Below are positions 11,352 to 33,383 of a DNA stretch of 64,000 bases, piece after piece (the stretch's first letter is position 1; each line of letters starts with the position of its first letter). The notes under the pieces were generated by a model. It saw only the letters and a program-made list of their open reading frames with translations. It ran no database searches and had not been told where the DNA came from. This DNA is from Acidobacteriota bacterium (GTDB lineage Bacteria; Acidobacteriota; Vicinamibacteria; Vicinamibacterales; CAVVIG01). The stretch lies in NCBI GenBank assembly GCA_003222395.1, contig QHWB01000053.1, positions 62,001 through 126,000 on the forward strand, in the 5' to 3' direction. The position numbers and the translations under genes are program-made.

Positions 11352-12659
11352 GTGGTATGCGTGGGTTGGGTCGTTGTCTTCATCGTTATCGCAGCTCTCG
11401 CATTCAAGGCGTCGACGCCTGAAGAACGGCTGCGGCTGATTCGGGCGCTGCGCGGCCTTCTGCTGAACGCGCGGGCGGTCGCGGCGCGCAACCTCGAGGA
11501 GTGCCGGCCGTTTCACGACGCGCTGCGCGCGCGCGTGCGCTGGCCGATCGCGACGCTTGCGATCGTCGCGCTCAACGTGGCCGTGTTTCTCGCGATGGTC
11601 TTCGGCCGCGGCGCAATTTCCGACCCGGAGACGCTCGTCTCGTGGGGCGCGACATTTGGTCCGCGCACGACGAACGGCGAGTGGTGGCGCCTGCTGACGT
11701 CGATGTTCGTGCAGCCGGGATTGCTCGCGCTGCTCGTGAACGTCGCCGGCGTGACGCAGCTCGGTCTCGTGCTCGAGCGCGTCGTGGGCCGTCTCGCGCT
11801 GGTGTCGATGTATTTGACCGCGGGCATCTTTGCGTGTCTCGTCACCATCGTCGCGAATCCGGTGACAGTCAGCGCCGGCGCATCGGGCGCGATCTTCGGC
11901 CTTTACGGTCTGCTGATCGCCTGCTGCATCTGGGATCTCTTCCGGCCATCGCCGGTGCCGATCCCGCTCGTCGCGGTCAAGCGGATTCTTCCCGCCGCTG
12001 TGATCTTCGTTCTGTACAACGCGAACAACGACAACGTCGGCACCGCCGCCGAGTTCATCGCGTTCGTCATCGGCTTCGGATCGGGCCTCGTGCTGACCAG
12101 CGGCGCCGGCGACCGCCAGCCTGCGCCGCGGCTGCTCGGCGCGATGTCGGGCGGCGCGCTCGTCATCGCGATGGTCGCCGCCGTGCCGCTGCGCGGCATC
12201 GCCGACGTGCGTCCTGAAATCGCGCGCGTGATCGCGATCGAGGATCAGACGGCGCCCGTGTACCGCAGCGCCGAAACGCGCTACAGGAAGAACCAGATCA
12301 GCGCGTCAATGCTGGCCGACTTGATCGAGCTGAAGATCATGCCCGAGCTGCACCAGGCGGGCGCGCGGCTCGCCGCGATCACCGGCATCCCCAAAGATCA
12401 TCAGGTCCTGATGGTCGACGCGCAGGAATACGTCAGGCTGCGCTATGAGAGCTGGCGCCTGCGGGCCGAAGGACTGCGGCGAACGGCGGCGCCGGTTCTG
12501 CGGCGATCGGATGGCGCGGGGCTCGCGGCCGAAGCCAACTGGCGAGACCGCGTCCAGTCGCAGTACCGAACGAATCAGATCATGCTGGGGCGTGCCGAAG
12601 GAACCGAACGCGCCTCTCTCGAAGTGCTCGACCGGATCAGACCGCTCAACCACAATTAG
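11352..12659 (+). CDS. Rhomboid-family membrane protein, predicted inactive
   Basis: 435 residues. An N-terminal membrane segment (4-19) precedes a six-helix rhomboid core (about 63-250) and a 185-residue cytoplasmic helical tail. The catalytic-serine motif is present as GASGAIFGLYG (Ser178). However, the helix-6 motif that should read AHxxGxxxG reads TAAEFIAFVIGFGSG, putting Glu234 where the catalytic His belongs, and the loop that normally has HxxxN shows MFVQPGLLALLVN with the His lost. Peptide hydrolysis by the usual Ser-His dyad is therefore not expected; it may bind membrane proteins as pseudo-rhomboids do. The start (GTG at 11352) is uncertain. A hairpin and nine T residues follow the stop. 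Confidence 0.8.
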   Translation: MVCVGWVVVFIVIAALAFKASTPEERLRLIRALRGLLLNARAVAARNLEECRPFHDALRARVRWPIATLAIVALNVAVFLAMVFGRGAISDPETLVSWGATFGPRTTNGEWWRLLTSMFVQPGLLALLVNVAGVTQLGLVLERVVGRLALVSMYLTAGIFACLVTIVANPVTVSAGASGAIFGLYGLLIACCIWDLFRPSPVPIPLVAVKRILPAAVIFVLYNANNDNVGTAAEFIAFVIGFGSGLVLTSGAGDRQPAPRLLGAMSGGALVIAMVAAVPLRGIADVRPEIARVIAIEDQTAPVYRSAETRYRKNQISASMLADLIELKIMPELHQAGARLAAITGIPKDHQVLMVDAQEYVRLRYESWRLRAEGLRRTAAPVLRRSDGAGLAAEANWRDRVQSQYRTNQIMLGRAEGTERASLEVLDRIRPLNHN

Positions 12660-12660
12660 T

Positions 12661-12688
12661 TCGCGGCGGGGGCCCCACGTTTTTTTTT
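12661..12688 (+). terminator. Hairpin plus T-run after the rhomboid gene
   Basis: GGGGCCCC-centred hairpin (about 12667-12678) followed by nine Ts at 12680-12688, starting two bases after the rhomboid stop. It fits a rho-independent terminator for the plus strand, though the stem is short. It is partly a duplicate of the first arm of the repeat that follows. Confidence 0.55.
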
Positions 12689-12821
12689 CGCGGCGGGGCC
12701 CCACCCCTGCCGCGCAGACGCGCTCGCACCGTAGTGCTCGCGCGTATTTAGAACGGAACGTCACCAATACGAGATTCACCCTCCACGCGCAGGGAGCAAA
12801 GTTGGCGACGTTCTGTTCTTA
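12689..12821. repeat. Inverted-repeat element, copy A (one arm degraded)
   Basis: Left arm 12689-12749 has two GC-rich hairpins (CGCGGCGGGG...CCTGCCGCG and CGCGCTCGCAC-CGTA-GTGCTCGCGCG). Then come AGAACGGAACGTC (12750-12762), a 44-nt spacer, and the inverted GACGTTCTGTTCT (12807-12819). The spacer, read on the other strand, aligns with that of copy B (both GCC.AC....TCCCTGCG....GGT). The right arm is missing; the stop codon of the ACT-domain gene overlaps this end. Confidence 0.75.
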
Positions 12822-13472
12822 GTATCGCCGCTTCTCCTGGCGCACGATGTCGAACTTCGCGGTGTCGGCGACGGCCATTACCGCCATCACGCCCGCCTGG
12901 ACCGGATCGGACACGACGAGATCGGCGGCGTCGGGCACGCTGCCGGCCATGTTGAGGGAGATGACGCGCAGCCCTTTCGCGCGCACTTCCTCGACGGCGT
13001 TCGTGATGTCGCCGCCCATCAGCGAACCGGCGAGCACGAGGAGGCGCACGCGCGGCAGCAGAACGACGGCGCGGACGGCGGCGGCGAGGTTTTGCTCCCC
13101 GACGAGCGGAATCGTATCAACCGAGATTCGTTCGCCGCGGATGTTGTGGCGGTCGGCCTCGCTGATCGCGCCCATCGCGACCTGACCGACCTGCGCGCCG
13201 CCGCCCATGATGATGATCCGCTTGCCGTAGATCTTCGCGAACGACGGCGTCGGCTCGACGCTCTTGATTCCGGCGACCGCCCGCATGTCGGCGACGACCG
13301 TCTCGATCGCGCGCTCGGTCGCGAACTCCAGATACACCTGCGGATCGCGATCCAGCGGACGGACGATGTCGACGTACGTGATGTTCGCATCGTGCGCCGC
13401 GAGGACCTTTGTCAAGCCATGCAGGATTCCCGGCTGGTCCGCCACCGTCGCCAGCACCGCGTGATCGGGCAT
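12819..13472 (-). CDS. ACT-domain protein with DUF5612-like C-terminal domain
   Basis: 217 residues. The N-terminal ACT domain (about 1-75) reads VLATVADQPGILHGLTKVLA with HDANITYVDI, the regulatory fold that binds amino acids or other small ligands. From about 80, KIYGKRIIIMGGGAQVGQVA starts a Rossmann-like domain with a glycine-rich turn, then AISEADRHNIRGERISVDTIPLVGE and VLAGSLMGGDITNAVEE. This order matches ACT-DUF5612 proteins known mainly from archaea and some bacteria; their function is not established. The gene stands alone, with repeat elements immediately downstream (12807-12821) and just upstream (from 13490), so its promoter lies within or beside copy B. Confidence 0.75.
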   Translation of the reverse strand: MPDHAVLATVADQPGILHGLTKVLAAHDANITYVDIVRPLDRDPQVYLEFATERAIETVVADMRAVAGIKSVEPTPSFAKIYGKRIIIMGGGAQVGQVAMGAISEADRHNIRGERISVDTIPLVGEQNLAAAVRAVVLLPRVRLLVLAGSLMGGDITNAVEEVRAKGLRVISLNMAGSVPDAADLVVSDPVQAGVMAVMAVADTAKFDIVRQEKRRY

Positions 13473-13489
13473 ACGCGCATGTAATCACA

Positions 13490-13699
13490 TTTTCTTAACG
13501 CGTGGGGCCCACCCCCACGCGCTGACGCCCTCGCGCCGTAGCGCGAGGGCGTATCCAGAACAGAACGTCGCCGACAACTGTCCCTGCGGGGGACCGGACC
13601 AAGTACGGATCGGTGACGTTCTGTTCTTGATACGCGCGAGCGGTTTACGCCGCGAGCGCGTCTGCGCGGCGGGGGTGGGTCCCCGCCGCGTTAAGAAAA
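13490..13699. repeat. MITE-like element, copy B, complete, with 13-bp terminal inverted repeats
   Basis: 210 bp bounded by a perfect inverted pair, TTTTCTTAACGCG (13490-13502) and CGCGTTAAGAAAA (13687-13699). Inside are a left arm with hairpins CGCGTGGGG/CCCCACGCG and GCCCTCGCGC-CGTA-GCGCGAGGGC, then AGAACAGAACGTC (13557-13569), a 45-nt spacer, the inverted GACGTTCTGTTCT (13615-13627), and a right arm with related hairpins. No protein is encoded, so movement would need enzymes supplied elsewhere. Confidence 0.8.
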
Positions 13700-13716
13700 C
13701 GTCGGTCCCCACACGT

Positions 13717-15075
13717 TCATCGAACAATCCGGCCGCAGTCGGGCATCGCTTTGCCGTAGAACGGATTCTGAACGGTGTCGCCCCGCTGCAGCCAATACTT
13801 CTGCGCCATCGGACAGAATGCGATGGTGACGCCGTCGCCGTAGCTCGAGCCAGACGTCTTGACGTAGTCGATGATCGCGTCGCTCAGCGTGCCGAACGCC
13901 GCACGCGCTGCCGGCAGATCGGTCGCGCGCACCAGAGCGCCGGCGGACATTCGAATCGGCTCGCCTGCCGATCCGAGATGACCCGCTTCGGTTGCGATCG
14001 CGCGCGCGTCGTCATGGATTCGTTCGGTCGCGTCCGCGTGCAGCGCCTGTTGAATCCGAAGGTACGCCTCGACGATCGCCGTCGGGTCCGCGGCCGTTTT
14101 GCTCGACGCGGTCGTCGCGGCACGCGGTTGCGGCGATGCCTCCTGGCCGGCGCGGCTCAGATAGTCGATGACTGCCGAGACATCGTCATCGTTCAATTTG
14201 AGGTTCGGCATCCGCGCCTCACGATACTCGGCGCGCAGCGCCACCGCGATCGGATCGCCGTCGGCGTTCATCTTGTCTGGCGCTGCAATGAAACGACGGA
14301 GCCAGTCGCGATCGCGGCGGCTGGTGACGCCCGCGAGATCCGGACCGATGCGAGCTTGCCCGCTTCCAATCGCATGGCAGGCGGAACAGTGATAGACGAA
14401 CGTGTATTGACCCGTGTCGAACGTCCGCGCCGGCGCCTCCGCGTACGATTTCAGCGCGTCGCCCGGGGGAGTCTGCCAGCTGTTCATCCACTGGCCAATC
14501 GTCCTCGCGATGAACTTCGGGTTGTCGACGGCCGAGTTCCGCATCCATTGGCCCGTCGCCTGGTTCCCGACCAGCAAGTACGGGACATGCCCGTCTGGGT
14601 TCCTCGGATCAGGTCCCGTGTACAGCCCGAGCTTTCGGCCGATCAGCTCGATGTCGCCCTTCGCACCGGTTAGAAATAACCAGCCAGGCCCCGCGTGATA
14701 CTTTTCGGCGTACTCCGCGAGGACGGCCGGCGTATCGTGATCGGGATCGATCGTGATCGAGTAAAAGAAGACGTCGCGACCCATGCGATCGCCGAGCAGT
14801 CGCTGCACTTGCGCCAGCCGCGCGGTCTCGAGCGGGCAGGCGTATTTGCAGGTCGTGTAGATCAGATCGATCGCGACGATCTTTCCTTTCACGAGGTCGT
14901 CGTAGAAGCGCACCGTCTTGCCCTGGTGCGTCGTCAACGTGACGTTCGGGAAGAAATCGGCGCCCCAGCGGGTGTCGCCGGCTGCGGCCGCAGCCGACGT
15001 GTACGGTGCATTCACTAATGAATTCAGCCACAAGGCCGCGGCCGCCGCGATCGTGGCTGCGATTTTCCATCGCAT
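13717..15075 (-). CDS. SCO1/SenC - cytochrome c - DUF3347 fusion protein (copy 1)
   Basis: 452 residues, exported by a signal peptide (residues 1-33). Three parts in order: a SCO1/SenC thioredoxin-like domain (about 40-215) with copper ligands in TTCKYACPLE and the distal His in DGHVPYLLVGN; a class I cytochrome c domain (about 235-325) with haem motif CSACH and probable axial Met in RMPNLKL; and a C-terminal DUF3347 domain (about 350-450) ending in CPMAQKYWLQRGDTVQNPF and YGKAMPDCG, a proposed metal-binding fold. SCO proteins deliver copper; the attached haem suggests electron transfer coupled to copper loading. GGGAGGA precedes ATG 15075. It lies 29 nt after the multicopper oxidase, a likely client. 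Confidence 0.85.
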   Translation of the reverse strand: MRWKIAATIAAAAALWLNSLVNAPYTSAAAAAGDTRWGADFFPNVTLTTHQGKTVRFYDDLVKGKIVAIDLIYTTCKYACPLETARLAQVQRLLGDRMGRDVFFYSITIDPDHDTPAVLAEYAEKYHAGPGWLFLTGAKGDIELIGRKLGLYTGPDPRNPDGHVPYLLVGNQATGQWMRNSAVDNPKFIARTIGQWMNSWQTPPGDALKSYAEAPARTFDTGQYTFVYHCSACHAIGSGQARIGPDLAGVTSRRDRDWLRRFIAAPDKMNADGDPIAVALRAEYREARMPNLKLNDDDVSAVIDYLSRAGQEASPQPRAATTASSKTAADPTAIVEAYLRIQQALHADATERIHDDARAIATEAGHLGSAGEPIRMSAGALVRATDLPAARAAFGTLSDAIIDYVKTSGSSYGDGVTIAFCPMAQKYWLQRGDTVQNPFYGKAMPDCGRIVR

Positions 15076-15104
15076 TGTCCGTCCTCCCGATCCGAGCCCG
15101 GCGC

Positions 15105-17333
<2,229 letters not shown>

Positions 17334-17850: not shown

Positions 17851-19218
17851 TCATCGCACGATCCGGCAGTCCGACATCGCTTTACCGTAAAACGGATTCT
17901 GAATCGTGTCGCCTCGCTGCAGCCAATATTTCTGCACCATCGGACAGAATGCCGCGGTGACGCCCTCGCCATAGCTCGACCCAGACGCCTCGACGTACGA
18001 CATGATCGCGTCGCCGAGTGTCCCGAACGCCGCACGGGCCACTTTGAGATCGTCCGCACGCGTCAACGCGGCAGCCGATGTTCGAATTGGTTCGCCCACC
18101 GATGCGAGGTTTCTCGCTTCGGTTTCAATCACGCCTGCAGGCTCACGGATTCGTTCGGTCGCGTCAGCGTGCAGCGCCTGTTGAATCCGAAGGTACGCAT
18201 CGACGATCGCGGTGAGCGCCTCGGCCGCCGGTCTACTCGAGGCCGTCGCCGCGACAGGCCCCGGCGGCGGCGCCTGCTGCGCAGCCCGGTTCTGTCCTTC
18301 CAGATAGTCGATGACCGCTGAAACATCCTCGTCGTTCAATTTGAGGTTCGGCATCCGCACCTGTCGATACTCCGCGCGCAGCGCCAGCGCGATCGGATCG
18401 CCGTCCGCGTTCATCTTATCGGGCGCCGTGATGAAACGACGCAGCCAGTCGCGATCGCGCCTGCCGGTGACGCCGGCGAGATCCGGACCCAGCCGCGTCG
18501 TCGCATTCCCGACGCCGTGGCAAGCGCCGCAGTGATAGGCGAATGTGTACTCGCCTTTGTTGAACGTCCGCACCGGCGCAGCCGCAGACGATTTCAACGC
18601 GTCGTTCGCCAGCGTGTGCCAGCTGTCCATCCACTCGCCGATCGTTCTCGCGATGAACTTCGGGTTGTCGGTCGCCGAGTTCCGCATCCATTGACCCGTC
18701 GCCTGATTGCCAACGAGCAGATAGGGAACATGGCCATCCGCGTTCGTGGGATCCGGACCCGCGTAAATTCCGAGCTTCCTGCCAACGAGCTCGATGTCCG
18801 CCTTCGCCCCCGTGAGGAACAGCCAGCCCGGACCGGCGCGGTACTTCTCCGCGTATTCCGCGAGCACCGCGGGCGTGTCGTGATCGGGATCGATCGTGAT
18901 CGAGTAGAAGAACACGTCGCGCCCCATGCGATCGCCGAGCAGCCGCTGCACCTGCGCGAGGCGGGCCGTCTCGAGCGGGCACGCGTACTTGCACGTCGTG
19001 TAGATGAGATCCACGGCAACGATCTTCCCCTTGATGAGATCGTCGTAGAACCGAACCGATTTTCCCTGATGCGTTGTGAACGTCACGTTCGGGAAGAAAT
19101 CGGCGCCCCAGCGCGAGTCGTCGGCCGCGGCCGCGGCCGACTCGAACGAAGCATTCACCAGACAACTCAGCCACAAGGCAGCGGCCGCCGCGATCGTGGC
19201 TGTGATCTTCCGTCGCAT
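17851..19218 (-). CDS. SCO1/SenC - cytochrome c - DUF3347 fusion protein (copy 2)
   Basis: 455 residues, very similar throughout to the protein at 13717-15075, so the two genes are clear duplicates. Signal peptide 1-31; copper motif TTCKYACPLE; distal His in DGHVPYLLVGN; haem motif CGACH with RMPNLKL as axial Met region; C-terminal CPMVQKYWLQRGDTIQNPF and YGKAMSDC. Differences concentrate in the linker between the cytochrome and DUF3347 domains (a Gln/Ala/Pro-rich segment) and the extreme C-terminus, which lacks the Gly of DCG. AGGAG precedes ATG 19218. The preceding oxidase gene is only a fragment, so this copy has lost its in-cis partner and may serve the remaining oxidase or another copper enzyme. 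Confidence 0.85.
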   Translation of the reverse strand: MRRKITATIAAAAALWLSCLVNASFESAAAAADDSRWGADFFPNVTFTTHQGKSVRFYDDLIKGKIVAVDLIYTTCKYACPLETARLAQVQRLLGDRMGRDVFFYSITIDPDHDTPAVLAEYAEKYRAGPGWLFLTGAKADIELVGRKLGIYAGPDPTNADGHVPYLLVGNQATGQWMRNSATDNPKFIARTIGEWMDSWHTLANDALKSSAAAPVRTFNKGEYTFAYHCGACHGVGNATTRLGPDLAGVTGRRDRDWLRRFITAPDKMNADGDPIALALRAEYRQVRMPNLKLNDEDVSAVIDYLEGQNRAAQQAPPPGPVAATASSRPAAEALTAIVDAYLRIQQALHADATERIREPAGVIETEARNLASVGEPIRTSAAALTRADDLKVARAAFGTLGDAIMSYVEASGSSYGEGVTAAFCPMVQKYWLQRGDTIQNPFYGKAMSDCRIVR

Positions 19219-19246
19219 CGTCGGTCTCCTCATCCCTGCGCGCCGC

Positions 19247-24252: not shown

Positions 24253-24264
24253 GGGCTGCCTACA

Positions 24265-24341
24265 TTTCTTAATTCGCGTGGGGCCCCCACGCGCTGACGC
24301 GCGCGGGCCGTAGCCCGCGCGCGTATCTAGAACAGAACGTC
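24265..24341 (+). repeat. Half of the inverted-repeat element, copy C
   Basis: Starts TTTCTTAATTCGCGTGGGG, a variant of the 13490 terminus, continues through hairpins CGCGTGGGG/CCCCACGCG and CGCGCGCGGGC-CGTA-GCCCGCGCGCG, and ends with the exact 13-mer AGAACAGAACGTC (24329-24341). The mirror half lies at 25289, with the DUF4159 gene between. Confidence 0.75.
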
Positions 24342-24398
24342 GCAGCACGATGACCACGTGTGTTCAGGATTTTCGTGGGTTTCGTGTTTTCGTGGCTA

Positions 24399-25202: not shown

Positions 25203-25288
25203 TCCGCGAGTATAATCCCGCCGCGGCAGCGCTAAGGGCTGCGCCCACGGTTGTGACAGCAGCCCGATGCACTTATGACATGCGCTGA

Positions 25289-25343
25289 GACGTTCTGTTC
25301 TGGATACGCGCGAGCGGTGTACGCCGCGAGCGCGTCTCCGCGT
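25289..25343 (-). repeat. Half of the inverted-repeat element, copy D
   Basis: GACGTTCTGTTCT (25289-25301) followed by GGATACGCGCGAGCGG and CGCCGCGAGCGCGT, closely matching the right arm of copy B (13615-13665). The GC-rich outer hairpin and terminus are missing. It faces copy C across the DUF4159 gene. Confidence 0.7.
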
Positions 25344-25372
25344 GACAGCCTTGAGCCGTTGCGAGGCGCAAC

Positions 25373-25390
25373 GCGGGCCTTTAGGCCTGC
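25373..25390. repeat. GCGGGCCT-TT-AGGCCTGC hairpin upstream of the NHL gene
   Basis: Eight-base stem with one mismatch, 27 nt before the start codon of the NHL-repeat protein. It belongs to the same GGCCT/AGGCC palindrome style as the repeats at 20400 and 34986. It could influence the 5' leader of the NHL mRNA; this is not shown. Confidence 0.5.
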
Positions 25391-26710: not shown

Positions 26711-27823
26711 ATGCGCCTGTTAGCGTGCGCGTTCATCGTCGCGGCCTTCGCTCAGTCGACCTCCGAGCCGATCAACGATCGCCCGAATCCGTATCAAGCG
26801 ATCGAGAACTACTTCAAACTGCCCGCCGGTCGAACCTGGGGATCGACGAGCGCCGTCGACGTCGACAAGGACGGCCGATCGATCTGGGTCGGCGAACGAT
26901 GCGGGGTGAACAGCTGCGCCGATCCGGCGGACGGTAAGATGTCGCCGCTCGATCCCGTGCTGAAGTTCGACGCCTCCGGCAAGCTCGTGAAGAGCTTCGG
27001 CGCCGGGATGATCGCGTTCGCCCACGGCATTCACGTCGACAAGGACGGCAACGTCTGGGTGACCGACGCGAACGACAACCGCCCGCGTCCCGCGCGCGGC
27101 GCAGCGCCCGGCGCGCCTGCGCCGCCGGCGCCCGCGAAGCTGGTCGGCCATCAGGTGATCAAGTTCAGCCCCGAGGGTAAGGTGCTGATGACGATTGGCA
27201 AGGCCGGCGTCGCCGGGAATCCGCCCGAGGCGCTCACCGAACCCAACGACGTCGTGACGGCGCCGAACGGCGACATCTTCGTCGCCGAAGGACACAGCGG
27301 GCAGAACGCGAACGCCGCGCCGGACACCGTCGCACGAATCTCGAAGTTCACGAAGGACGGCAAATTCATCAAGTCGTGGGGCAAGCTCGGCTCCGCGCCC
27401 GGCGAATTCCGTACGCCGCACAGCCTCGCGTTCGATTCGAGGGGTCGTCTGTTCGTCGCCGATCGCGGCAACGTGCGGCTGCAGATCTTCGATCAGGACG
27501 GGAAGTTCCTGCAGGAGACGAAGGCGTTCAGCCGCCTGAGCGGCATCTTCATCGACAAGAATGACACGCTGTACGGCGCCGACTCCGAGTCGAGCCCGAC
27601 GTCGCACCCCGGCAACTGGAAGCGCGGCATCCGCATCGGCAGCGCAAAAGATCTGACGATCACGTATCTCATTCCCGATCCGAAGAACCCCGATCCTGCC
27701 AAGACGACCGCCGGCACGAGCGCCGCGGAAGGTGTCGCCGTCGACGCGGCCGGAAACGTCTACGGCGCCGAAGTGGGACCGAAGCAGGTGGTCAAATACG
27801 TGAAGAGGACGGGGACGCAGTAG
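26711..27823 (+). CDS. Exported NHL-repeat beta-propeller protein (copy 2)
   Basis: 370 residues from ATG 26711, preceded by GGGAGGG. Signal peptide MRLLACAFIVAAFAQ. NHL blades as in the preceding gene: FAHGIHVDKDGNVWVTD, EPNDVVTAPNGDIFVAEGHS, FRTPHSLAFDSRGRLFVAD and VDAAGNVYGAEVGPKQVVKY. Both proteins share NPYxxxENYFKLPxGRxWGSTSA at the mature N-terminus and a Cys pair (GERCGVNSCADPADG here), so they arose by tandem duplication. The Pro/Ala insert (RPARGAAPGAPAPPAPAK) is at the same site but differs in sequence. Ligand or substrate unknown. Confidence 0.8.
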   Translation: MRLLACAFIVAAFAQSTSEPINDRPNPYQAIENYFKLPAGRTWGSTSAVDVDKDGRSIWVGERCGVNSCADPADGKMSPLDPVLKFDASGKLVKSFGAGMIAFAHGIHVDKDGNVWVTDANDNRPRPARGAAPGAPAPPAPAKLVGHQVIKFSPEGKVLMTIGKAGVAGNPPEALTEPNDVVTAPNGDIFVAEGHSGQNANAAPDTVARISKFTKDGKFIKSWGKLGSAPGEFRTPHSLAFDSRGRLFVADRGNVRLQIFDQDGKFLQETKAFSRLSGIFIDKNDTLYGADSESSPTSHPGNWKRGIRIGSAKDLTITYLIPDPKNPDPAKTTAGTSAAEGVAVDAAGNVYGAEVGPKQVVKYVKRTGTQ

Positions 27824-27846
27824 CTTGCCGGTTGCTGGGGGCCCGA

Positions 27847-27877
27847 GGTTGCTGGTTGCTGGAGGCAACCAGCAACC
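27847..27877. terminator. Bidirectional hairpin GGTTGCTGGTTGC/GCAACCAGCAACC
   Basis: A perfect 13-bp stem (27847-27859 with 27865-27877) and five-base loop between two converging genes, the NHL protein and the SnoaL-like protein. No long T-run follows on either strand. It is made of the reiterated GGTTGCTGG motif, related in style to the repeats at 1919 and 59355. Confidence 0.6.
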
Positions 27878-27880
27878 AGT

Positions 27881-28303
27881 CTAGACCTCTGCGGTCAGCG
27901 CAGGCATCCGGCCGATCGACTGGAACAGGCCGAGGTTGTCGAATACCTCGTACTCTTCGATGATCTTGCCGTTGGCGAAACGCATGACCGAGATGCACGG
28001 CACGGTCACCGGCCGGCCGGTGCCGCTGATGCCCGCCAGCTCTCCGCGATGCGTGCCTTTTGCGGTGAACCGCAGCGCGACCTTGTCGCCTTCGGCGATG
28101 ACGTCGTCGATCTGAAGGACCATATCGGGAAAGGCGTTCAGGTACATCGTCACCAACTGCCGCCACCCTTCAGGACCGCGGAACTGCATGCCGGGTCCCT
28201 GGTACACGTAGAACGGCGCGTGCAGGGCGGCTCCCTCATCCAGCTGCCGGCTGTTGATGCAGTCGACGACGCGGCGGCACAGAGCTTTGTTCTCACCGTT
28301 CAT
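27881..28303 (-). CDS. SnoaL-like ester cyclase family protein
   Basis: 140 residues from ATG 28303, selected because GGAGGTGA precedes it by five bases; an in-frame ATG 24 nt upstream lacks such a site. The sequence fits the SnoaL/NTF2-like cone fold: NSRQLDEGAALHAPFYVY, GPEGWRQLVTMYLNAFPDM, IAEGDKVALRFTAKGTHRG and ISVMRFANGKIIEEYEVFD. Such small proteins act as cyclases, isomerases or simply bind polar aromatic compounds. It is followed by the cupin gene on the same strand only if transcription starts upstream; the cupin gene lies 31 nt upstream of this start. Confidence 0.8.
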   Translation of the reverse strand: MNGENKALCRRVVDCINSRQLDEGAALHAPFYVYQGPGMQFRGPEGWRQLVTMYLNAFPDMVLQIDDVIAEGDKVALRFTAKGTHRGELAGISGTGRPVTVPCISVMRFANGKIIEEYEVFDNLGLFQSIGRMPALTAEV

Positions 28304-28334
28304 ACGAGTCACCTCCATGGCGCTCATTTCCTTC

Positions 28335-29054
28335 TCATTTCCTGATAGAGGGATGCACGTAACCCGCCTTCAGCACATGATCCGACGGCCGAAAGCTCAG
28401 ATAGTCCACATGATCGCCGATGTCGGTCCAGCCGTGCGGGACGCCCGCCGGAATGATGACGATATCGCCCGTCTTCACGACCTTTTTGACGACGTCGCTG
28501 CCCGCGATCATGCCGCCGCACGACGGTCCGTTCAGCTCCGTAGTCACCGACGCGTCCGGCGCCGTCTTTCGGCCGTTGACGATGTGACCGCCGGTCACGA
28601 GCGTGCCGCCGCCCGAGATGATCAGATAGCCTTCGGTCTGTGAATCGTGCGCGATGCCGCCGGGGGTCGCGCCGCTTGGCGGCGTGGTCGCCTGCTCGCC
28701 GCACGGCTCGCCCTGCTGGGCGCCACGGCCGCCGCCGGCTCCGGCCCCTGCCGCCCGTCCACCGCCGCCCGCCGCGCCGCCGCCAGCTGCGGCGCCGCCA
28801 CCGGCTCCGGCGTTCGCGCCGCCGCCCGCGCCCGTCCCGCGTGCGCCGGTGGCCACGCGATGGATCACACCGACCGCGTAGTTCTCGCTGCCGATGTCGA
28901 CAACCCTGATCGTGCGATCGACGCCCGGCTCGGCGTTCACTTTCTTCACTTCCTCGTCGGTGATGTAGGTGGCCGCCTTCGGCGACTGGGCGATCGCGAC
29001 CGCCGGCGCAATCGCCAGCGCCATGCCCACGGCTTGCACGATGATCCTTCGCAT
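28335..29054 (-). CDS. Exported cupin-fold protein with Gly/Ala-rich insert
   Basis: 239 residues from ATG 29054 (GGAGGAGG just upstream). Signal peptide MRRIIVQAVGMALAIAPAVAIA. Residues about 20-70 and 135-239 form a small beta-barrel of cupin type: EGYLIISGGGTLVTGGHI, then VVKTGDIVIIPAGVPHGWTD with one metal-type His. Between them lies a low-complexity Gly/Ala insert (about 71-110) encoded by GCC/GGC-rich DNA, probably a flexible loop expanded by slippage. Only part of the canonical cupin metal site is visible. Likely same operon as the SnoaL-like gene. Substrate unknown. Confidence 0.7.
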   Translation of the reverse strand: MRRIIVQAVGMALAIAPAVAIAQSPKAATYITDEEVKKVNAEPGVDRTIRVVDIGSENYAVGVIHRVATGARGTGAGGGANAGAGGGAAAGGGAAGGGGRAAGAGAGGGRGAQQGEPCGEQATTPPSGATPGGIAHDSQTEGYLIISGGGTLVTGGHIVNGRKTAPDASVTTELNGPSCGGMIAGSDVVKKVVKTGDIVIIPAGVPHGWTDIGDHVDYLSFRPSDHVLKAGYVHPSIRK

Positions 29055-29138
29055 GACTCCTCCTCCATGACCCAGAAACCGTCTCGGAGCGCTGCGCATT
29101 CAGCGCGGATGCGCAAGTTGGTCGCGTACTATAACGGA

Positions 29139-29903
29139 ATGCCATTCAATCGGCGAGAGTTCCTCGCGGCATCCGGCGCAATATTCGGGGCGCGGGCCGT
29201 CAGTCCCGCGAACTGCGCGACGCAGGTCGGCCCCGCGATCTCGCAGCCCCCCCAGCCACAGATGCCCGGTCCGCCGGGCGACGCCGCGCCGGGACGCCTG
29301 CGCAAGCTTGGGCTCGGCGAGGGCGATCGCGACGGCCTGCTCTACGCGCCGGTCGGCTACAAGGCGGGCGAGCCGATGCCGCTGCTCGTCCTCCTGCACG
29401 GCGCCGGCAACACGTCGATGTCAGTGCAGTACGCGTTTCCTCACGCCGACGCGTTCGGGTTCATCGTCGTCGCCCCCGACTCGCGCGACGAGCGCACCTG
29501 GGATTCGATCCTCGGCATGTGGGGACCGGACCTCGAGTTCATCGGCGAGGCGATGAAGTACGCGAAGAGCAGGTGCTCGGTGAAGGACGATCACGTCGGC
29601 CTCGCCGGCTTCTCCGACGGCGCGTCGTACGCGCTGTCGATGGGCATCGGCAACGGCGACGTGTTCTCGCGCATCATGGCGATGTCGCCCGGCATCATGC
29701 AGCCGGCGGCGGTGCGCGGCAAGCCGAAGATCTTCATCTCGCACGGCGTCAACGATCAGGTCATGCCGATCGACATCACGAGCCGCAAGTTCGTGCCGCG
29801 GCTGAAGAATCTCGGCTACGACGTCACCTACCGCGAATACGAAGGACGCCATCAGCTGCCACCGCCGATCGCGCACGATGCGTTCGAGTGGTTCAGCAAG
29901 TGA
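29139..29903 (+). CDS. Tat-exported alpha/beta hydrolase (esterase/phospholipase-like)
   Basis: 254 residues from ATG 29139, which opens a Tat leader (NRREFLAASGAIFGARAV). The mature part is an alpha/beta hydrolase of the carboxylesterase/PHB-depolymerase-like group: PLLVLLHGAGNTSMS (oxyanion region), nucleophile in AGFSDGASYAL, acid in HGVNDQVMP, and catalytic His in YEGRHQLPP. The expected activity is ester hydrolysis in the periplasm. A poly-proline segment (QPPQPQMPGPPG) links the leader to the domain. The stop lies three bases before the flavin monooxygenase start, so the two are co-transcribed, with a glycosyltransferase third. Confidence 0.8.
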   Translation: MPFNRREFLAASGAIFGARAVSPANCATQVGPAISQPPQPQMPGPPGDAAPGRLRKLGLGEGDRDGLLYAPVGYKAGEPMPLLVLLHGAGNTSMSVQYAFPHADAFGFIVVAPDSRDERTWDSILGMWGPDLEFIGEAMKYAKSRCSVKDDHVGLAGFSDGASYALSMGIGNGDVFSRIMAMSPGIMQPAAVRGKPKIFISHGVNDQVMPIDITSRKFVPRLKNLGYDVTYREYEGRHQLPPPIAHDAFEWFSK

Positions 29904-29906
29904 GCG

Positions 29907-30980
29907 ATGCCGCTGCGCCTCGGCGTTCTCGATCAGGCTCCGATTGCCGCAGGGTCGACCGGCGCCGGCGCGCTGAGGAACTCGATCGATCTCGCGCGGC
30001 TCGCCGACGAGCTGGGCTATCGCCGCTACTGGGTCGCCGAACATCACGGGACGCCGATGCTCGCCTGCGCGAGCCCGGAGGCGCTCATCGCGCCGATTGC
30101 GTGCGCGACGACGCGCATCCGCGTTGGCAGCGGCGGCGTGATGCTGCCGCATTACAGCCCGCTGAAGGTCGCGGAGACCTACAGCATGCTGAGCGGCATC
30201 TTTCCGGCGCGGATCGATCTGGGCGTCGGGCGAGCGCCCGGCAGCGATCCGCTCACCGCCTTCGCGCTCCAGCGCGATCGCCGTCAGGCGTCGCCTGACG
30301 ATTTTCCGCAGCAGCTCGAGGAGCTCCTCGCGTACCTGCACGATGCGCTGCCGCCGCGGCATCAGTTCGCGCGGCTGTCGGCGCTGCCCGGCCGCCCCGA
30401 GCGCCCCGACGTCTGGCTGCTCGGATCATCGCCTCAGAGCGGCAGCTGGGCGGCGGAGCTCGGGCTGCCGTACGCCTTTGCCGATTTCATCAACCCGCAC
30501 GGGGCCGAAATTGTCGAACGCTACCGGCGCGACTTCCGAACGCTCACGATCTCCACCACAGCGGACACGGAGGACATGGAGCAACAAACCGGGTCGAACC
30601 TCCGTGCTCCCCGCGTCGGCGTTGGAGAGTCTCGCCCGCGCGTCATCGTCGCAGGGTGGGCGCTGTGCGCCGACACCGACGAAGAAGCGGAGCGCCTCGG
30701 CGCGAGCGCGCGAATGGCGTTTGCGATGCTGCTCGGCGGCCAGCCGATTCCAGTGCCGCCCGTCGACGAAGCGCTTCGGTTTCTCGAGGAACACTGGGCG
30801 GCGGCCGAATCGCTCGTCCGTCGTCGCCGCTGGATCGTCGGATCGCCGCCGAAGGTGCGCGCGGGCCTCGAAGCGCTCGCGGAGGAATACGGCGCCGACG
30901 AGGTGATGATCGTCACGATCACCCACGATCACGATGCTCGCCGGCGATCGTACGAGTTGATCGCGCGCGCCTTTACTTAG
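29907..30980 (+). CDS. LLM-class flavin oxidoreductase, MsnO8-like
   Basis: 357 residues with the luciferase-like TIM barrel. The N-terminus LRLGVLDQAPIAAGSTGAGA and the motif RYWVAEHHGTPMLACASPEA mark the MsnO8 subfamily; VGSGGVMLPHYSPLKVAE and DLGVGRAPGSD complete the FMN/substrate pocket. Such enzymes use reduced FMN and oxygen to oxidise small molecules. A divergent, polar stretch (about 210-238, ADTEDMEQQTGSNLRAPRVG) separates the two halves of the barrel. Middle gene of an esterase-LLM-glycosyltransferase run. The reductase partner is not nearby. Substrate unknown. Confidence 0.82.
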   Translation: MPLRLGVLDQAPIAAGSTGAGALRNSIDLARLADELGYRRYWVAEHHGTPMLACASPEALIAPIACATTRIRVGSGGVMLPHYSPLKVAETYSMLSGIFPARIDLGVGRAPGSDPLTAFALQRDRRQASPDDFPQQLEELLAYLHDALPPRHQFARLSALPGRPERPDVWLLGSSPQSGSWAAELGLPYAFADFINPHGAEIVERYRRDFRTLTISTTADTEDMEQQTGSNLRAPRVGVGESRPRVIVAGWALCADTDEEAERLGASARMAFAMLLGGQPIPVPPVDEALRFLEEHWAAAESLVRRRRWIVGSPPKVRAGLEALAEEYGADEVMIVTITHDHDARRRSYELIARAFT

Positions 30981-30990
30981 TTCTCGCACG

Positions 30991-32103
30991 ATGCGCATCG
31001 GACTTATCGTCACCGGCGGCGTCGACCGCTCCGGACGCGAACGCGTCACGCCTGCGCTGCTGTGGCTGATCGAACGCCTCGTGCGGCGTCACGACGTCCA
31101 TGTCTTCGCGCTGCACTACCACCTCCACGCGTGCACGTACCCGCTCCTCGGCGCAACGGTCCATGACGTCGGCCGCGTCGATGGGCCGCCCGGCCTGCGG
31201 CGATGGCGGCTCGCCCGCCGCCTCGACCGCGCGATCGGGCGCGTCGGCGCGTTCGGCGTCGTGCATGCGTATCAAGGGATGCCGGCCATGGTGGCAGCCG
31301 CGGTCGCGGCGTCGCGGCACGTACCGCTGATCGTTACGCTCGACAGCGGCGAGCTCGTCGGCATCGCCGACATCGGCTACGGCCTGCAGCGCCGCTGGAT
31401 CGATCGGCGCAGTCTGGCGCTCGCGATGGATCGCGCCGCGCGTGTGACGGTCTCGACCGAATTCATGGCGCGGCTGCCGGGGCTGAGCCGCCGCCGCGTC
31501 GACGTCGTGCCGATGGGCATCGACGAGACGCTGTTTCCGGCGGCGTGGCGCGGCGACGGTCCACCGTGGCGTCTGCTCCGCGTAGCCAGCATCAATCCGG
31601 TGAAGGATCACCCCACGCTGCTCCAGGCGATGCGGCGCGTCGTCGATCGGCTTCCCGAGGTTCATCTCGACATCGTCGGCGAAGACACGATGAACGGGAC
31701 GATCCAGTCGCTCGCGCGTACGCTGGATCTCCTGCCGCATGTCGGTTTCCACGGATTTCTGCCGACCGATCGACTCGCGCCGTTCTACGCGCGCGCCCAC
31801 CTCCACGTCGTCTCGTCGCGGCACGAGGCGGCGGCCGTCGCCGTGCTCGAAGCGGCGTGCGCCGGTCTCCCGACCGTCGGGACGCGCGTCGGGTACATCG
31901 CCGACTGGGAACCGGAACGGGCCGCAGCCGTGCCCGCGGGCGATCCGGGCGCGCTTGCCGACGCGATCGTCGCGCTGCTGCAGGATCCGGCGCGCCGTTC
32001 CCGTCTGGCGGCGAGCGCTCGATCGTGGACGCTGGATCACGATGCGGATTGGACGGCGCGCCGGTTCGAAGAACTCTACGAAACAGAACGCAGAGATCGC
32101 TGA
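30991..32103 (+). CDS. GT4-family glycosyltransferase
   Basis: 370 residues with the two-Rossmann GT-B layout. The N-terminal half begins MRIGLIVTGGVDRSGRERV (donor/acceptor domain). The C-terminal domain has LLRVASINPVKDHPTLLQAM, HVGFHGFLPTDRLAPFYARA and the E-x7-E signature in SRHEAAAVAVLEAACAGLP. It should transfer an activated sugar with retention of configuration. It starts 10 nt after the LLM gene and its 3' end overlaps the converging flippase gene by 28 bp. It marks the left edge of the surface-glycan locus. Confidence 0.85.
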   Translation: MRIGLIVTGGVDRSGRERVTPALLWLIERLVRRHDVHVFALHYHLHACTYPLLGATVHDVGRVDGPPGLRRWRLARRLDRAIGRVGAFGVVHAYQGMPAMVAAAVAASRHVPLIVTLDSGELVGIADIGYGLQRRWIDRRSLALAMDRAARVTVSTEFMARLPGLSRRRVDVVPMGIDETLFPAAWRGDGPPWRLLRVASINPVKDHPTLLQAMRRVVDRLPEVHLDIVGEDTMNGTIQSLARTLDLLPHVGFHGFLPTDRLAPFYARAHLHVVSSRHEAAAVAVLEAACAGLPTVGTRVGYIADWEPERAAAVPAGDPGALADAIVALLQDPARRSRLAASARSWTLDHDADWTARRFEELYETERRDR

Positions 32104-33383
32104 GATCGCAGCCTAAACAGTTTCCCCGCGGTCGTTGCGATCTCTTCGTTCTTCGATTGCTCCACGGTTCGGCGCAGCGGCCACCAGATCGCCGCCTCGC
32201 CGATTGCGAGGCTGACGGCCGCGCCCGTCGCGCCCGCGAGCGGCATCAACAGCGCCGATGCGGCGATCTGAATCGCCAGAGCCGCGGCGCTCCACCGCAC
32301 CACGATCGTTTCAGCGCCGGCTGCGTACAGGAAAATCTTCCTTCCGGAGTTCGTCACCGCCGGCAGGAGCGCGATGCCCATCCACATGAGCGCTGGTGCG
32401 CCCTTCGAGAACGCGTCTCCGTACACGAGGCGCAGCAGCGGGCCGGCGACCGCGACGTACGGAATCGCGACAGCGAGCGTTACGGCGACAAGCGCGCGGT
32501 TGAACGATCCGTACGTTCGATGCGCTTGGCGACGGTCGCGGCCGTACTCGCCCGACAGCACCGGCAGCGCGCCGGCGAACATCGCGCCCGGAGCAAGCCG
32601 GGCCACGGTGCCACAGCGCGACGCTGCGGCGAAAATGCCGACCTCTGCGGGCGTCGCCAGGTAGCCGAGCATCAGCGGGCCGACGCGCGCCTGCACGTTC
32701 GCGACGAGTCCGGACGCCGCGAACGGAATCGCGCGCCGAATCAACGCCGCGGTTTCGGACCACGACGGACGCCGAATCGGATCGCGAGCGCCGAAGGCCA
32801 TCGCGTAAAGCACGAGACCCGATCCGATCTGTGCGAGTTGAACGATCGTCGCCAGCAGGACGAGCGGCGAGACGCCGGCGCCAGCCCGCGCCAGAACCGA
32901 CGACGCGGCAAGCTGCGCCGCCGACCACGCCGTCTCGACGATCAGCACCGTCGGCACCCAGGCCGGCTGCGATCGGAACAACGCGCCGAAGCAGCCGTAG
33001 GCTGCGCCGGTTGCGCCGAGCAGCACGCCGAGGCGAATGCCGGCGATCGATTCCGGATCCGCGGCGATGCGCGGCGCGGCGGCGTACATCACCGCGCCCA
33101 GCGGCACGAGCAGCAACAGCCTCGACGCGAGCGCGCCGCCGAGCAGCCGGCCGTGGCACGCGTCGCTGCGCGCGCCGTCGCGCGGCAGCAGGACGCCGAA
33201 GCCGAGATCGGCGACGACCGTCAGCATCGACGCCCACGTCGTGCACAGGACCCAACGGCCGAACCGCTCCACGCCGAGCGTGCGGCCGATGACCAGCGAG
33301 AGCGCGAAGGCGATGGCGCCGCGCGCGAGATTGGAGCCGAGAAACGCGGCGCTGAGGCGTCCGATGCGCGCGAGCGGCCTCAT
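32076..33383 (-). CDS. Polysaccharide flippase, MATE/Wzx-like (1)
   Basis: 435 residues, about twelve transmembrane helices, starting MRPLARIGRLSAAFLGSNLA. It has the usual layout of the polysaccharide biosynthesis (Wzx/RfbX) family: ALSLVIGRTLGVERFGRWVL near the start, paired helices with Arg-rich loops, and PLLRLVYGDAFSKGAPALMW in the second half. It should move lipid-linked glycan across the inner membrane. ATG 33383 overlaps the stop of the amidohydrolase gene by four bases (ATGA). It is the last gene of the coupled minus-strand operon; a second flippase is encoded at 44189. Confidence 0.82.
   Translation of the reverse strand: MRPLARIGRLSAAFLGSNLARGAIAFALSLVIGRTLGVERFGRWVLCTTWASMLTVVADLGFGVLLPRDGARSDACHGRLLGGALASRLLLLVPLGAVMYAAAPRIAADPESIAGIRLGVLLGATGAAYGCFGALFRSQPAWVPTVLIVETAWSAAQLAASSVLARAGAGVSPLVLLATIVQLAQIGSGLVLYAMAFGARDPIRRPSWSETAALIRRAIPFAASGLVANVQARVGPLMLGYLATPAEVGIFAAASRCGTVARLAPGAMFAGALPVLSGEYGRDRRQAHRTYGSFNRALVAVTLAVAIPYVAVAGPLLRLVYGDAFSKGAPALMWMGIALLPAVTNSGRKIFLYAAGAETIVVRWSAAALAIQIAASALLMPLAGATGAAVSLAIGEAAIWWPLRRTVEQSKNEEIATTAGKLFRLRSQRSLRSVS

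Follow-up and report, generated by a model that had tools for sequence, protein, structure and literature searches.

The region between positions 12660 and 13699 of the window (the whole 64-kb stretch of DNA that was analysed) holds two structured repeats, here termed copies A and B, and raises the question of what the repeated unit is and how it has spread. A sequence-only reading had proposed a new interspersed element bounded by 13-bp terminal inverted repeats. Its interspersed nature is borne out by the source genome (G000; 7.74 Mb, 99% complete; the other G-numbers used below denote relatives), which contains 93 exact copies of the 13-mer AGAACAGAACGTC and none of the reversed control. 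The proposed limits and terminal repeats are not upheld: copy B contains the true unit twice over, and the repeats TTTTCTTAACGCG/CGCGTTAAGAAAA, although present, are the outer ends of two head-to-head elements. In the collected genome copies, the repeat unit is a single ∼88-nt element with polarity, in the order GACGTTCTGTTCT, hairpin 2, hairpin 1, and TAAGAAAATG. Its consensus in the working orientation is KYKGY-GACGTTCTGTTCT-RGATAC-hairpin 2-CAG or CTG-hairpin 1-(RR)TAARAAAA, usually followed by ATG or GTG; the alignment places RGATAC directly before hairpin 2. The stem of hairpin 2 comprises 6 bp, a conserved tandem GA/GA internal loop and a further 3–4 bp, and the loop of hairpin 1 is GTGGGG. 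By eye only, the 5′ GACGTTCTGTTCT resembles the 3′ end when the latter is reverse-complemented, as (R)ACRTTTTCTTA.

Copy B consists of two complete elements head to head, one on the minus strand (13487–13574; 98.9 bits with covariance model R1) and one on the plus strand (13610–13701; 89.7 bits), and its core pair is as first described, with AGAACAGAACGTC at 13557–13569, the reverse complement at 13615–13627, and a 45-nt spacer (13570–13614). The left element lies upstream of a minus-strand ORF starting at 13472, and the right one is directed at the minus-strand ORF 13717–15351, whose 3′ end it approaches. Copy A consists of one complete minus-strand element (12677–12767; 90.9 bits) and a bare core, so that the hairpin arms reported for both copies are found on the two elements of copy B and on one in copy A, the right half of copy A having none. 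Of its core pair, the right member is the exact GACGTTCTGTTCT (12807–12819, plus strand; a weak model match of 14.2 bits) across the reported 44-nt spacer (12763–12806), and the left member, read on the plus strand as AGAACGGAACGTC (12750–12762), carries one mismatch. The minus-strand ORF 12819–13472 has a TAA stop that takes in the last base of the bare core; on the other side, a partial hairpin-1 module extends beyond copy A towards 12660, where it abuts the stop codon of the plus-strand ORF 11352–12659. Two further copies in the window had been missed: a complete minus-strand element at 24263–24346 (91.6 bits; exact core 24329–24341), and a plus-strand composite at 25284–25389 (51.3 bits; exact core 25289–25301) with a second stem-loop inside hairpin 1. 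With up to two mismatches allowed, the search pattern has 10 matches in the window against 3.3 expected. As a separate observation on this neighborhood, the minus-strand ORFs 13717–15351 and 17851–19233 look paralogous by reading, each with SCO-like and cytochrome-like halves, and a multicopper-oxidase-like ORF (15105–17333) lies between them.

The spacers of copies A and B align when A is reversed, as had been claimed: only 7 of 2000 shuffles score as high, whereas 1159 of 2000 do so for the forward alignment, and the two copies therefore probably share ancestry as a pair. Among the loci examined, head-to-head pairs with 20–120 nt between cores have three distinct spacers (44, 45, and 52 nt), the third being a different 52-nt sequence shared by loci C64 and C94. 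For the most part, copies stand alone or in direct tandems, and there are also composites, in which one stem-loop module is nested inside another. Exact-core copies lacking hairpins occur at two other loci (L025 and L029) in addition to the one ending at 12819.

Conservation of the stems as structure, despite changes in sequence, is strongly supported by covariation in 42 of 44 extracted sequences from this genome and its relatives; these were chosen by a pattern requiring a terminal NTG, such that the 3′ end of the model leans towards NTG. Across both hairpins, 94.7% of cells are paired, and 9 pairs carry double changes, amounting to 56 double-change cells as compared with 14.5 in shuffled alignments. 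None of 500 shuffles attains any of five covariation measures, and slid pairings collapse. The GA/GA columns of hairpin 2 remain unpaired beside covarying pairs, and in hairpin 1, 14 sequences have non-standard pairs at two near-base positions, which by eye are often GA/GA again. The fold predicted independently by RNAalifold agrees on hairpin 2, whereas its hairpin 1 is shorter and shifted. Rfam contains no match to the window region or to the cluster of copies in G017.

The family is confined to related Acidobacteria MAGs. Exact core matches occur in 7 of 40 genomes, with 93 in G000, 69 in G017, and 20 in G014; the remaining four genomes have a single match apiece, of which only that in G002 sits in an element; those in G013, G016, and G027 lack hairpins and were rejected. 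The G016 match encodes RRSVL in an apparent Tat signal (by reading). Matches to the covariance model at E 0.01 or better were obtained in 21 of 60 genomes, the counts per genome saturating because only 73 candidates were scored in each. A search of 84,980 species genomes for the 18-mer TATCYAGAACAGAACGTC returned 69 stretches, mostly from related Acidobacteria MAGs, and the isolated matches outside Acidobacteria were rejected for lack of hairpins. Two of these records, from Xylanimonas and Schaalia, have a stretch in common in which repeated TGGATAGG units surround the 18-mer, unrelated to the element.

Orthologous sites are both occupied and empty, in comparisons that are between relatives rather than close strains and that bear on past rather than present mobility. 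Upstream of rplP (30 loci, 2 of them unreadable), G000 has an element, G002 has a hairpin-1-like leader, and the 26 other readable loci of relatives have neither. Separately, the rpsC-rplP gap of many relatives (L198–L217) contains other palindromic low-complexity strings (GGTAATTGGGTAATTGG, GGCTGATGGCTGATGG, and others) that differ from genome to genome. At the junction of crcB and DUF190 (named by reading; two further loci were unparsed), two genera are occupied and three are empty: G012 reads TGA-TCC-ATG, with G002 and G013 empty likewise, G017 has GGTGACGCTCTGTTCT...AAAGAATG between stop and start, and G000 carries a tandem of two elements. The copies of these two genomes have the same hairpin 2 except for a compensatory U-A/C-G change near its base, which suggests an old shared insertion whose structure has been kept. 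Four G000 copies, at L068, L080, L062, and imuA, have flanks matching those of copies in relatives; at L080 and L062 the elements differ in type despite the matching flanks, such that common descent at these two is not certain. Some copies may thus be old, with sites common to different genera (crcB-DUF190 and imuA).

The contexts in which the element occurs are compatible with translation in three ways: before a start codon, with a neighboring gene's stop codon in or at the 5′ end of the element, or in frame inside a gene. The G000 loci contain 95 element matches, 11 of them tandem; of the other 84, 49 precede a same-strand gene, 15 point at a convergent one, and 20 are ambiguous, these position counts being approximate since gene calls came from a simple codon model for which the window served as training set. 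The terminal NTG is an in-frame start codon of the downstream gene in 26 of the 49 same-strand copies, and the best-scoring start in 22; the NTG-ending selection pattern biases the position of the end, not the reading frame of the downstream gene. In relatives, 26 matches (19 same-strand, 4 tandem, 2 convergent, and 1 ambiguous) include 12 same-strand copies whose NTG is an in-frame start codon. Examples read from the sequence are L041, L061 (rplP, in a ribosomal protein operon), L069, L074, and L078. An NTG also lies within 9 nt of the end in 24 of the 35 G000 copies that do not precede a same-strand gene.

Of 192 copies examined, 12 are intragenic and in frame, with the coding frame required to stay open to either side of the element (3 of 95 in G000 and 9 of 97 in relatives); all 12 use one frame, which is translated as RRSVLDT or a near variant. 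The sense frame of the element, RRSVLDTRE..., is mostly open: over 70 nt, 142 of 160 copies have no stop in it, compared with 86 and 77 copies in the case of the two alternative forward frames, and the stops in those frames account for part of the single-frame bias. Pfam assigns the hosts to MeaB, biotin ligase (BirA), UvrC, ROK, DUF72, a DEAD helicase, an HI0933-like flavoprotein, and a helicase with an MZB domain; a ninth host protein (L096) has no Pfam family match, and G017 has in-frame copies in imuA, imuB, and dnaE2 (named by reading). The PDB homologs of MeaB, BirA, and the HI0933-like host lack the RRSVLDT peptide. For MeaB, the alignment to 6cum passes directly from chain residue 96 to 97 while the query has 23 extra residues (85–107), and relative to their own homologs BirA has ∼23 extra residues and the HI0933-like protein ∼27.

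Dispersal, covariation, empty orthologous sites, translation-compatible contexts, and the lack of target-site duplication (in 107 copies, the longest words shared between flanks do not exceed those of shuffled pairings) together make it probable that this is a non-autonomous mobile palindromic element of ∼88 nt. The most likely reading is that it is mobilized in trans, probably as a single strand: the 3′ junction before RTG, the hairpins near both ends, and the lack of duplication resemble the behavior of IS200/IS605, no link to a REP-associated Y1 transposase (RAYT) was seen, and G000 has no Y2_Tnp match (on which basis an IS91-type mover was rejected). The responsible enzyme would recognize the hairpins and, by a rule analogous to that of IS200/IS605, insert the element 3′ of CAY on the bottom strand, after which selection would retain mainly those insertions that leave translation intact. 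CAY flanks most copies, although it was partly selected for by the NTG-ending pattern. Counting against this account, the transposase with matching ends anticipated by the sequence-only reading was not found, and searches with the Y1_Tnp and Y2_Tnp families revealed no autonomous relative or mobilizing gene.

That the element is instead a REP or REPIN family moved by a RAYT is, in our assessment, unlikely. A hairpin with a conserved internal mismatch, the lack of target duplication and the occasional inverted pairs would all fit, and the one RAYT-like Y1_Tnp gene of G000 has its own REP array (GTAGCGCGAGCCTTTCAGGCGAGCG), which also has a GA/GA loop. That array is, however, of a different, GTAG type, and the element has no GTAG tag. 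Moreover, no model match to the element occurs in 16 RAYT/Y1_Tnp-bearing loci (61,727 bases), and G011 and G012 (96–97% complete), which carry 21 and 51 model matches, have no Y1_Tnp match. At the RAYT-like locus itself (L031), the tandem 37-bp REPs span ∼860–1410 and 1930–2060.

The hairpins could also be regarded as a cis-acting 5′ leader RNA that regulates translation of the abutted gene and is kept for that purpose. Such a role would account for the direct contact with start codons in 26 of 49 same-strand G000 copies, for the strong stem covariation, and for the compensatory pair near the base of hairpin 2 at crcB-DUF190. It is nonetheless quite unlikely, given that, of the 84 non-tandem G000 matches, 15 point at a convergent gene and another 20 are ambiguous, that copies lie in frame inside genes, that the downstream genes have no evident common pathway, that the same genes lack the element in relatives (rplP and crcB-DUF190), and that Rfam offers no match. 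Least probable is an RNA-mediated, retro-type spread, in which sites before RTG would receive copies of a structured, A-tailed RNA: the A-rich 3′ end, the prevailing agreement in strand with the gene downstream (49 same-strand and 15 convergent), and the frequent C(UACG)G loop of hairpin 2 on the working strand, a UNCG-type RNA loop, are consistent with it, whereas the lack of target duplication and the presence of AACG, GACG, and CACG loops, in which the first position is not limited to U, make it very unlikely.

The element could itself be adapted to translation, a possibility that we hold as doubtful. It would then be a portable start module, with a purine-rich leader and an ATG, stops in the other frames, and a mostly open sense frame, which genes would tolerate in front of them, behind them, or within them; the inserting enzyme would read RTG and thereby seek out start codons, and some copies would now be maintained as 5′ leaders.

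Among known systems, the closest likeness is to the Rickettsia palindromic elements (RPEs), which adopt a stem-loop form and for which we know of no identified mover. RPEs are dispersed and non-autonomous, and their in-frame insertions into many unrelated genes encode a conserved peptide (PMC10969869). The element described here is likewise dispersed, non-autonomous, and in frame in unrelated genes, with one reading frame and a conserved peptide. It differs from RPEs in its phylum, in having two separate hairpins and a constant 13-mer in place of one ∼150-bp palindrome, in its commonest clear position before start codons, and in its hairpin-in-hairpin composites. By this description, the element is a new, non-autonomous, translation-compatible palindromic element that, by analogy, would work as the RPEs do. 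A literature search, conducted largely on material other than full texts, found no earlier description in Acidobacteria.

Other families share fewer of these features. REPs can be intragenic, including in DNA-repair genes (PMC3733652), and the element resembles the GTAG/CGTC-tagged REPs, REPINs, and REPtrons in its short hairpins, its singletons, pairs, and tandems, and some intragenic copies, including those in DNA-repair genes. Unlike GTAG REPs and REPINs, it lacks a GTAG at the hairpin's 5′ foot, and no copies were found flanking a RAYT gene in the loci searched; it differs further in its length of ∼88 nt and its two different hairpins. In CGTC REPs the CGTC lies beside an 8–9 bp stem with A-T at positions 1 and 2, whereas in the element it lies within the 13-mer, away from the stem. 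Pneumococcal BOX elements are modular, and enterobacterial RU/ERIC elements target TA with duplication. Both are short mobile sequences that contain open frames and can lie inside genes (PMC2759123, PMC3049150), and in these respects they are similar to the element by description. Members of the IS200/IS605 family have subterminal hairpins, make no duplication, and leave a fixed short flank on one strand, with targets such as TTAC and TTGAT. MITEs derived from this family are comparable in that the element has hairpins near both ends, no duplication, and a 3′ junction before RTG, but no matching TnpA ends were found and CAY is not known to be among the targets of the family. The absence of target-site duplication further separates the element from a MITE of a DDE transposon.

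Protein-coding palindromes have so far been described mainly in Rickettsia, and the present case extends to an unrelated Acidobacteria lineage of free-living type. Because the element enters conserved enzymes in frame (MeaB, BirA, UvrC, and DnaE2) and also precedes start codons, among them the one of the S10-operon gene rplP, it offers a tractable case for how selfish DNA becomes protein sequence or leader, and for which enzyme moves hairpins with no duplication left behind; gene calling in Acidobacteria MAGs that carry the element is also affected. A dense cluster of copies is present on contig 181 of G017 (L257–L259; ∼27160–32610), where about ten copies, all in one direction, occupy ∼6 kb of an imuA-imuB-dnaE2 mutagenesis cassette; an integron-like cassette array was considered here and rejected, as the copies lie both inside and between these genes. 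In many of the relatives read, the DnaE2 loop after GAELT (L261–L290) contains varied repeat-like low-complexity inserts (e.g., ANSEFGIQNSEF, RNLELKTQNLELK, and GQVGQARQAGLH), as if many classes of repeat use one tolerated site.
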